Assembly (NCBI RefSeq): GCF_009363695.1
Contig: NZ_CP045403.1
Coordinates: 1,654,001 to 1,718,000, forward strand
Direction: 5' to 3'
Source of the DNA: Bacillus sp. THAF10
GTDB taxonomy: Bacteria > Bacillota > Bacilli > Bacillales > Bacillaceae_I
DNA length: 64,000 bases
Of the stretch, positions 5,173 through 7,728 are shown one piece after another; position 1 is the stretch's first letter; each line of letters starts with the position of its first letter. The notes under the pieces are model-generated. The model worked only from the letters and a program-made list of their open reading frames with translations. It was not told the DNA's origin and ran no database searches. Both the position numbers and the translations under genes were made by a program.

Positions 5173-6129
5173 TTGACGGTTTATTTAGATGCAATATGGC
5201 TATTAAACTTTGGTTTTGATTTTTTGCTCTTGAAAATTACCGGGCATATATTAAAGCGTCAAATGGTGACATGGAGAATTTGTATTGGTGCATTTATTGG
5301 TTCCTTAATCGTGGTGCTTATGTTTACTCCTTTACAAGCGCTAGTCGCAAATCCCCTTTTAAAGATCTTGTTTTCTTTTGCGATGATACTAATAACCTTT
5401 GGGTTTCACCGCATTCGAACTTTTGTGGAAAATTTACTGGTATTTTATGTGACGACTTTTGCCATAGGAGGAGGCATGCTTGCCATTCATTTTGCATTAC
5501 AGGTGGATCATCGATTTGCAAATGATAGCATCATGACGTTAACAAGAGGACTTGGGGACCCTATATCCTGGCTCTTTGTACTTATCGGATTTCCCATTCT
5601 TTTAATTCTCTCCAAGAAACAATTTGACTCCATTGAGACGAGAAAATTTAAATACGACCAATTAGCCACCATTAAAATTTGGATAGAAAAGGAAGTGATA
5701 ACTATCCCTGCTCTAGTAGATAGCGGTAATCAGCTACTAGATCCTATCACGAAAACTCCCGTTATGATTGCCGAAATCTCTGCGATGCAAGCATTCATTC
5801 CTCAAGAATTAATACAAGCTGTAGACTCCATTTCACAAACACAAGGTTGGCCTACTTTTTCATCTGATACGAAGTGGGTAGATAGAATCCGAATTGTCCC
5901 GTACCGGGCTGTTGGAAAAGCTACTACGCTTATGCTTGCAATCAAGCCGGATAAAGCCATTATTATTCATGATCAAAAATATGTAGAAACGAGCAAGTTT
6001 TTAATTGGATTGACAAAAACCAACCTCTCATCTGAGGGTGACTATATGTGCATCTTACATCCAAAAATGCTGCAAGGAGGAATAAACATTGGGGAAGCTC
6101 AAGATAAAGCTAACGTATTTATGGTATAA
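5173..6129 (+). CDS. spoIIGA: Sporulation sigma-E factor processing peptidase SpoIIGA
   Basis: 318 residues. Membrane-embedded aspartic protease that removes the pro-sequence of SigE in the mother cell after a signal (SpoIIR) from the forespore. The first about 150 residues form roughly five membrane segments; the cytoplasmic half carries the protease motif ALVDSGNQL, with the catalytic aspartate near residue 183. Start is TTG 5173, supported by GAGGGA eight bases upstream and by the family opening [14 protein letters not shown]. It overlaps the sigE start by about 40 bases, as expected for a protease and substrate made together. Confidence 0.95.
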
Positions 6130-6808
6130 ACTATTAATGAAACTGGGATTAAAGACTGATGAGATTTATTATATTGGAGGAAGTGAAGCCCTCCCTCCAC
6201 CACTCTCGAAGGAGGAAGAAGCGCACTTATTAATTAAGCTTCCTAAAGGTGATCAAGCAGCAAGATCGATTTTAATTGAAAGAAACCTTCGACTAGTCGT
6301 TTACATCGCAAGAAAATTTGAAAATACAGGCATCAATATTGAGGATTTAATTAGCATTGGAACGATTGGATTGATCAAAGCTGTAAATACCTTTAATCCT
6401 GAGAAGAAAATTAAGCTAGCCACTTATGCTTCTCGATGCATCGAAAATGAAATCCTCATGTACTTGCGAAGAAATAACAAGGTTCGTTCAGAAGTGTCAT
6501 TTGATGAGCCGCTGAATATTGATTGGGACGGGAATGAATTGTTATTATCCGATGTGTTGGGAACGGATGAGGACATCATTACAAAGGATTTGGAGGCAAA
6601 CGTCGATCGAAAGTTATTATTAAAAGCATTGGAATCTTTAAGTGATCGGGAAAAACAAATCATGGAGCTGCGTTTTGGCCTTGTTGGTGGAGAAGAAAAA
6701 ACACAAAAAGATGTAGCAGATATGCTCGGAATATCGCAATCATATATCTCTAGATTGGAAAAAAGAATCATAAAAAGATTAAGAAAAGAATTTAATAAAA
6801 TGGTGTAA
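6089..6808 (+). CDS. sigE: RNA polymerase sporulation sigma factor SigE (pro-sigma-E)
   Basis: 239 residues, the same length as I recall for B. subtilis pro-SigE and nearly identical in the conserved regions. The basic amphipathic pro-sequence (about residues 1-27, [12 protein letters not shown]) keeps it at the membrane until SpoIIGA cuts near EIYYIGG. Region 2 ([26 protein letters not shown]) and the region 4 helix-turn-helix ([19 protein letters not shown]) are intact. Start is TTG 6089, with AGGAGG eight bases before it, inside the end of spoIIGA. It drives the early mother-cell programme; no terminator is obvious before sigG. Confidence 0.97.
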
Positions 6809-6884
6809 AAAAATTTTTTCTCAGTTTTACTTAAGATTGATAAGGGTTTACGCTTTTTGTCAGAATAGATAGATTTTAACAAGT

Positions 6885-6913
6885 GCATATTTTTCCCTCC
6901 TAAGGAGATACTG
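6885..6913 (+). promoter_or_regulatory. Candidate SigF/SigG promoter of sigG
   Basis: GCATA at 6885-6889 fits the forespore -35 (GYWTA) and GGAGATACTG at 6904-6913 fits the SigF -10 (GGnnAnAnTR) fully. The spacer is 14 bases, about one shorter than the usual 15-16, which lowers confidence. A start site near 6920 would leave out the upstream arm of the leader hairpin at 6890-6900. Confidence 0.5.
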
Positions 6914-6947
6914 ACTCTGAACAGCAACTCCTGACTGGAGGGGAAAG
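6890..6947 (+). promoter_or_regulatory. sigG leader hairpin that would hide the ribosome binding site
   Basis: TTTTCCCTCC at 6891-6900 is complementary to GGAGGGGAAA at 6937-6946 over ten consecutive pairs (one G-U); an inner stem AGGAG 6903-6907 / CTCCT 6928-6932 stacks inside. The 3' arm is the Shine-Dalgarno of sigG (ATG 6949). The structure can form only in mRNA reading through from spoIIG, since a start at the SigF/SigG-type promoter would begin downstream of the 5' arm. Confidence 0.65.
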
Positions 6948-6948
6948 A

Positions 6949-7728
6949 ATGACACGTAATAAAGTTGAAATTTGCGGTGTAGACACCTCAAAGCTTCCGG
7001 TACTAAAAAACGAAGAAATGAGAAAGTTATTTCGAGAAATGCAGAGCGGTGATTTGTCTGCGCGCGAAAAATTAGTCAATGGGAATTTGAGGCTTGTATT
7101 AAGTGTTATTCAACGGTTTAACAACCGTGGAGAATTTGTAGATGACCTGTTTCAAGTTGGCTGCATTGGATTGATGAAATCCATTGATAACTTTGATTTG
7201 GGACAAAATGTAAAATTTTCTACATATGCAGTTCCGATGATAATTGGAGAAATCAGACGTTATTTAAGAGATAATAACCCAATAAGAGTCTCTCGATCAT
7301 TACGGGATATTGCCTACAAAGCGTTGCAAGTAAGAGAAAGATTGATGAGTGAAACCTCTAGAGAGCCAACAGCTGAAGAAATTTCCAAGGTATTAGAGGT
7401 ACCGCATGAGGAAATTGTGTTTGCTCTTGATGCCATTCAAGACCCTGTATCCTTGTTTGAACCCATCTACAATGATGGTGGCGATCCAATTTATGTTCTC
7501 GACCAAATAAGTGATGAAAAAAATAAGGACATACAGTGGATTGAAGAAATCGCACTCAAAGAAGGAATGCGAAGACTAAATGATAGAGAGAAGCTCATTT
7601 TAAGAAAAAGATTTTTTCAAGGTAAAACACAAATGGAAGTTGCTGACGAAATTGGTATTTCACAAGCCCAGGTATCACGTCTTGAAAAAGCAGCAATAAA
7701 GCAAATGAACAAAAATATACAGAGTTAA
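6949..7728 (+). CDS. sigG: RNA polymerase sporulation sigma factor SigG
   Basis: 259 residues, matching the family length. Forespore late sigma factor, active after engulfment. Opens with NKVEICGVDTSKLPVL, the conserved SigG N-terminus that includes the SpoIIAB/Gin-interacting segment; region 2 (NGNLRLVLSVIQRF, FQVGCIGLMKSIDNFD), region 3 (EPTAEEISKVLEV) and the region 4 helix-turn-helix (EVADEIGISQAQVSRLEK) are intact. ATG 6949 follows GGAGGGG, which is sequesterable (see leader). Read-through from spoIIGA-sigE plus a forespore promoter gives the usual two-layer control. A terminator follows. Confidence 0.97.
   Translation: MTRNKVEICGVDTSKLPVLKNEEMRKLFREMQSGDLSAREKLVNGNLRLVLSVIQRFNNRGEFVDDLFQVGCIGLMKSIDNFDLGQNVKFSTYAVPMIIGEIRRYLRDNNPIRVSRSLRDIAYKALQVRERLMSETSREPTAEEISKVLEVPHEEIVFALDAIQDPVSLFEPIYNDGGDPIYVLDQISDEKNKDIQWIEEIALKEGMRRLNDREKLILRKRFFQGKTQMEVADEIGISQAQVSRLEKAAIKQMNKNIQS

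Follow-up and report, generated by a model that had tools for sequence, protein, structure and literature searches.

A predicted hairpin over the sigG Shine-Dalgarno sequence in read-through RNA and its co-evolution across families of Bacilli

The sigG gene lies behind an operon whose transcription precedes the forespore and also takes place outside it. Vegetative Bacillus subtilis is harmed by SigG produced in the wrong cells (PMC5942855), and early sigG RNA in that species is read-through from sigE that goes untranslated (PMC2530871). A hairpin in this read-through RNA was proposed decades ago (Masuda 1988 and Sun 1991, as cited in PMC5942855), in agreement with the remark in the original prediction that a similar idea had been discussed for B. 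subtilis spoIIIG. The B. subtilis hairpin concerns the same gene (spoIIIG/sigG) in the same place, 3' of spoIIGA-sigE, and belongs to read-through RNA only. It is stated to have 20 or more pairs, whereas the corresponding structure in the window (the whole 64,000-nucleotide stretch of Bacillus sp. THAF10 DNA analyzed here) has 11 outer pairs, a start-codon stem and inner stems. The window feature is an orthologue of a known one and the idea is not new; what we add is sequence-based evidence of co-evolution across families. We found neither conservation nor co-evolution of the large read-through hairpin reported in PMC5942855, and a search by title and abstract opening, with the subscription literature mostly beyond its reach, found no comparative study of it.

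The RBS hairpin of Mearls 2018 (PMC5942855) is a structure separate from the read-through hairpin. It forms in promoter-derived mRNA, where, as at the window locus, CTCC upstream of the Shine-Dalgarno sequence (SD) pairs with GGAG; its stated energy in B. subtilis is -6.2 kcal/mol, compared to -7.1 kcal/mol for the fold of 6918-6960 here. According to the same paper, changes that weaken this hairpin raised B. subtilis expression 2-4-fold, changes that strengthen it nearly abolished expression, and RBS hairpins occur in 15 of 15 Bacilli.

Another parallel comes from phage T4, in gene e and I-TevI. Their long early RNA hides the SD, and transcripts from late promoters, located around the 5' arm, lack that arm (PMC3014915, PMC2988022). 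The sigG arm at 6890-6900 is likewise the promoter spacer, such that the short RNA is predicted to escape the hairpin. The systems are analogous rather than homologous: genes and promoters are unrelated, the T4 arrangement follows phage-cycle timing rather than cell compartment, and it has been tested by mutation.

The sigG locus and its leader

Three genes lie in tandem in the window, each scoring above its NCBIfam equivalog cut-off.

5173..6129, + strand: spoIIGA (sigma-E processing peptidase), from the first start codon; NCBIfam TIGR02854, 316 bits (cut-off 210)
6089..6808, + strand: sigE, from the first start codon; TIGR02835, 447 bits (cut-off 349)
6949..7728, + strand: sigG; TIGR02850, 516 bits (cut-off 457)

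The sigG gene is directly 3' of spoIIGA-sigE, matching the B. subtilis-type arrangement, and the gap of 140 nt separates it from sigE, the presumed source of read-through RNA. The SigG protein is 100% identical over residues 1-259 to two named S. horikoshii loci, and the chromosome is Sutcliffiella-like. A search of 6700-7100 with Rfam covariance models found nothing with an E of 1 or lower, and no terminator-like site was found at the sigE-sigG junction (6700-7060). A repeat-like stretch 5' of spoIIGA was rejected as a genomic repeat, since a genome search allowing up to 3 mismatches located it only once.

The leader contains the following elements.

6885..6889, + strand: -35-like GCATA of a SigF/SigG-type promoter, from the sequence; contains CAT at 6886-6888
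6890..6900, + strand: 5' (outer) arm of the predicted read-through hairpin, within the promoter spacer, from the fold and from co-evolution with the SD region
6903..6907, + strand: AGGAG, overlapping the -10 and inner-stem partner of CTCCT in read-through RNA, from the fold
6904..6912, + strand: -10-like element GGAGATACT, from the sequence (GGAGATACTG across 6904-6913)
6919..6920, + strand: inferred transcription start, from the distance to the -10 and B. subtilis positions in PMC5942855
6928..6932, + strand: anti-SD CTCCT, from the fold; pairs with the -10 AGGAG in read-through RNA, and its CTCC with the SD in promoter-derived RNA
6937..6947, + strand: 3' arm, SD GGAGGGG followed by AAAG, from sequence and fold

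The -10-like element is where it was originally placed (6904-6913), and 14 nt separate it from the -35-like element. These SigF/SigG promoter-like elements are present and conserved: among 193 leaders matching our first promoter pattern, GCATA was found in 169 and GGAGATACT as the -10 in 144, and the spacer measures 14 nt in 188 of the 209 leaders of the wider set. The start was positioned using the B. subtilis RBS (+19 to +23) and hairpin (+10 to +15) coordinates in PMC5942855, and would fall after the 5' arm. ACAGCA (6921-6926; columns 48-53 of alignment A1, described below) is well conserved in A1 and mostly unpaired in the structures discussed here.

Predicted folding of read-through and promoter-derived RNA

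We confirmed the predicted ten-pair complementarity between TTTTCCCTCC (6891-6900) and GGAGGGGAAA (6937-6946) in both sequence and position. Folding adds a terminal U-G pair (6890/6947), giving 11 pairs between 6890-6900 and 6937-6947, two of them U-G, that bury the sigG SD. In the same fold the start codon ATG stems with CAT 6886-6888, and AGGAG 6903-6907 forms an inner stem with CTCCT 6928-6932. The 67 nt from 6885 to 6951 fold at -26.5 kcal/mol, compared to -12.5 (sd 2.3) for 200 dinucleotide shuffles, none of which was as good (z -6.0). With 150 nt of upstream context, opening the SD in read-through RNA is predicted to cost 16.7 kcal/mol, a calculation that leaves out of account co-transcriptional folding and any ribosomes still engaged on sigE. 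This cost ranks first among 155 ORFs (median 4.1), which were called mechanically with a GGAGG/GGGGG SD in 464 kb of the genome (the window plus 20 stretches of 20 kb). In the same sample, sigG ranks second of 155 for complementarity between -70..-36 and the SD, and 15th of 155 for SD opening cost when only the last 30 nt upstream are folded.

Truncation of the RNA from its 5' end left the opening cost at 16.5-16.7 kcal/mol for ends between 6809 and 6885. The cost was 9.6 kcal/mol with the end at 6896, 3.5-4.4 kcal/mol at 6899-6904 (-10 kept, arm gone) and 6.2-6.8 kcal/mol at 6908-6927. Together, folds and truncations predict that an arm located 5' of the promoter start and complementary to the SD forms a hairpin in read-through RNA only. 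These energies (16.7 versus 6.2-6.3 kcal/mol) reproduce the expectation that the SD is strongly hidden in read-through RNA and far less so in RNA started at the promoter. The inner AGGAG/CTCCT stem was also part of the original prediction, and it does fold, at 6903-6907/6928-6932. We rejected it as a necessary part of the lock over the SD, for which it is predicted to be dispensable: the long RNA still costs 16.5 kcal/mol to open with the -10 shuffled and 16.3 kcal/mol with the anti-SD shuffled, and therefore the outer arm alone would make the lock.

Forespore transcripts had been expected to be free, which our folds contradict. CTCC 6928-6931 pairs with GGAG 6937-6940 with a probability of 0.76-0.99 for 5' ends at 6914-6925, and SD opening in the short RNA costs about 6 kcal/mol because of this pairing; the B. 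subtilis mutations agree (PMC5942855). By folding energy this small hairpin does not stand out: 6919-6990 lies within the range of its shuffles (z 0.14; 110 of 200 did equally well), and shuffling the anti-SD in the short RNA reduces the cost only from 6.2 to a median of 4.8 kcal/mol. The lower cost with 5' ends at 6899-6904 arises because the SD-like -10 competes for the anti-SD. A less supported suggestion is that the -10, once transcribed, draws the anti-SD away as a decoy; the window values (3.5-4.4 versus 6.2 kcal/mol) fit this, but in only 86 of 195 leaders does keeping the -10, with the arm absent, lower the cost by at least 1 kcal/mol. At the group level, a GGAG -10 associates with a leader CTCC (51 and 17 versus 8 and 14, p 0.0016, ancestry ignored).

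Any C/T-rich spacer will pair with GGAGGG, and the SD opening cost is still a median 11.6 kcal/mol after the letters of the 5' arm are shuffled. Much of the lock strength is therefore explained by pyrimidine content, and the pyrimidine-rich spacer could be a promoter feature only, with the SD match as a by-product of composition. We consider this unlikely, because mononucleotide-shuffled spacers reach -8.7 compared to -14.6 for the spacers' own sequences, own and exchanged arms differ (see below), and in some lineages A-tract spacers are paired with U-tracts. A weaker argument is that 11 of 12 other promoter-pattern matches in the genome have no CCC in the spacer (the one at 3482880 has CCCC), most of these matches probably not being promoters since a reversed control pattern matched 11 times.

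The leader in relatives

The first set comprised leaders from 219 relatives, among the matches listed. Removing duplicates by the last 75 nt left 200 distinct leaders, and five without a recognizable promoter in the usual place (L076, L082, L087, L130 and L163) were dropped to leave 195. From other orders we kept 34 of 40 leaders, and from a third set, drawn from the window's order and largely from new families, 27 of 30; the six and three dropped had no recognizable promoter. SigE is encoded upstream of sigG in 207 of the 219 relatives, again among the matches listed, and 9 of the 12 without a SigE match have at most 450 nt of upstream sequence. L096, L132 and L133 gave no SigE match despite 1500 nt upstream of sigG, and the leader arms are present in L132 and L133.

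The original prediction took the arms to be specific to this organism, but SD hiding is predicted to be stronger in read-through RNA throughout most of the survey. The opening cost of the long RNA exceeds that of the short RNA by at least 3 kcal/mol in 168 of 195 leaders of the first set, and in 183 of 209 sequences and 83 of 90 groups of the wider set. Restricted to GTDB-numbered families, the difference reaches this level in 161 of 184 sequences and 67 of 73 families. Median long/short opening costs (kcal/mol) were 12.4/4.3 for GGAGGGA-type leaders (119), 12.1/4.0 for GGAGGGGA leaders (29), 11.2/4.1 where GGAGGG is followed by T or C (12), 12.4/6.3 for GGAGGGGT leaders (4) and 11.6/5.2 for other SD types (9). 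For the 22 GGAGGT leaders, mostly Paenibacillus, the medians were 6.9/4.5, and 8 of the 22 still have the SD core paired with the promoter region. Paenibacillus-type leaders are thus predicted to form much weaker locks; among them, only L091 has a strong terminator. Differences below 3 kcal/mol were found for families f23, f27, f39, f50, f66 and f68 and for the Pullulanibacillus leader.

Several leaders differ in layout. In some Paenibacillus-type leaders such as L079, the -10 flank CCAAGGAGA could pair differently in read-through RNA, being complementary (by eye) to TCTCCTTGG ahead of the SD. About 20-110 extra nt lie between the sigG promoter and the SD in L130, L163, L076, L082, L283, L331, L336, L337, L340 and L270. 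L130 and L163 retain TTTCCCTC/GAGGGAAA across the insert (by eye), the lock is kept in L270, L331 and L340, and it is absent from L283, L336 and L337. An Rfam scan of L076, L082, L130 and L163 found no family matching the leader. A TPP riboswitch lies 3' of sigG in Bacillus mojavensis (L062:3242-3344).

Putative terminators separating the two genes, from predictions in B. weihenstephanensis, are described in a B. mycoides paper (PMC3762067). In our survey, terminator-like hairpins precede the promoter in 31 of 173 leaders, compared to 4 of 173 after one shuffle each; in L036 and L045 the hairpin overlaps the -35 and the promoter spacer T-tract itself serves as the U-tract. The hairpins seen in our survey would suit a pairing that mainly terminates transcription or destabilizes the read-through RNA, rather than blocking ribosomes. 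We think this very improbable, given that the window locus has no terminator-like site, the arm covers the SD and start codon with no U-tract after it, and the relation between strong terminators and the strength of the lock is weak. On this last point, the idea that a strong sigE-sigG terminator relaxes the lock was set aside: with leaders over 60 nt left out, the difference is below 3 kcal/mol in 8 of 29 leaders with strong terminators and 28 of 222 others (p 0.045), and 5 of those 8 are Rossellomorea/f27.

Co-evolution of the arm and the Shine-Dalgarno region

Covariation of the arms in relatives had been named beforehand as a check, and it was found with both swap tests and alignment scores. 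In the swap test, one random leader was taken per numbered family and its own arm/SD duplex was compared with exchanged ones. Across 73 families the own duplexes averaged -15.35, versus -13.52 when exchanged (z -8.4; 0 of 12000 permutations as low). The 47 families in the window's order gave z -5.9 (1 of 12000) and the 26 outside it z -5.5 (0 of 12000), whereas a control pairing the arm with codons gave +1.3, +1.1 and +0.7 for the 73, 47 and 26 families. These family tests exclude 47 of the 195 leaders as unlabelled, including all named Paenibacillus and Cohnella, and therefore under-represent the main exception. With 90 groups, 17 of which come from genus names and may overlap numbered families (the reason for the repeat on the 73 numbered families alone), arm against SD gave z -9.1, compared to -1.7 for a control using 24 nt upstream. 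Controls in the first set gave -1.7 for the arm against the leader before the SD and +1.1 for the reversed arm. The arm of the RBS hairpin showed no co-evolution with the SD in the 90-group test (z 0.0). Exchange with the nearest family, a harder test, gave -15.33 for own duplexes versus -14.34 (53 better, 30 worse, 7 ties, p 0.004; codon control p 0.26). Because this effect is modest, common descent may account for part of the signal seen among families.

Alignment A1 contains 147 leaders, with GAATA Paenibacillus-type leaders kept out. Its outer helix has a covariation score of 0.244, compared to 0.211 when shuffled (0 of 500) and 0.13-0.19 when slid. Double changes occur in 9 of 11 pairs, a number that 73 of 500 shuffles reach, and in 52 cells versus 35, with more in 3 of 6 slides. 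Fixed-register covariation of the outer helix is modest. The inner stem covaries a little (0.123 versus 0.099, 1 of 500), the RBS hairpin shows none beyond chance in A1, and RNAalifold on the whole alignment returned only 8 pairs at -2.8 kcal/mol. Pairing is nonetheless kept by differing sequences, as in AAAAUCCCUCC/GGAGGGGUUUU, CUCCCUCC/GGAGGGAG, UUUCUUUCCUUGG/CCAAGGGAGGGAG and UUUUCUUUUUGCAGG/CCUGCAAGGAGGGGA.

The arms flank the -10 and start region, and the first transcribed bases, ACAGCA, are conserved, as might be expected if the inverted repeat acted as DNA, in the form of a regulator binding site at the sigG promoter. That reading is extremely unlikely. The pairing sequence itself varies between lineages, and U lies opposite G in 219 cells versus 29 with C opposite A (counts that ignore kinship), an excess that fits pairing of the sense RNA strand and is not expected of a DNA palindrome.

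We propose instead that 6885-6951 would be read twice, as the SigF/SigG-type sigG promoter in DNA and as a hairpin in RNA. In transcripts entering from spoIIGA-sigE, the promoter spacer would serve as an anti-Shine-Dalgarno arm and close over the SD and start codon, leaving the read-through message hardly translated. RNA begun at the promoter (about 6919) would lack the arm, and this forespore message would be translated at a damped rate because the nearby CTCC pairs weakly with the SD. The outcome would be SigG made mainly from its own compartment-specific promoter, an account that we regard as highly probable. The basis for it is complementarity, predicted energies, conservation and co-evolution, from which we infer that this organism makes read-through RNA, where transcription starts, how translation is affected and what the arrangement is for. 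The likely function would be to have mainly forespore-promoter-started mRNA translated, at a damped rate.

More tentatively, the sigG promoter could be doubly coded across class Bacilli, reporting transcript origin, with the read-through lock and not the RBS hairpin as the co-evolving feature. The arm remains strong in 29 of 35 leaders with a weak RBS hairpin, suggesting that it is the lock, rather than the weaker RBS hairpin, that is held by co-evolution. The lock may also help to hold the spacer at 14 nt. A lock built from the promoter spacer would explain how transcription of a single locus in both settings can lead to translation mainly in one, and the comparative data would turn a one-species proposal into a rule that can be tested across many Bacilli and has the exceptions named above.
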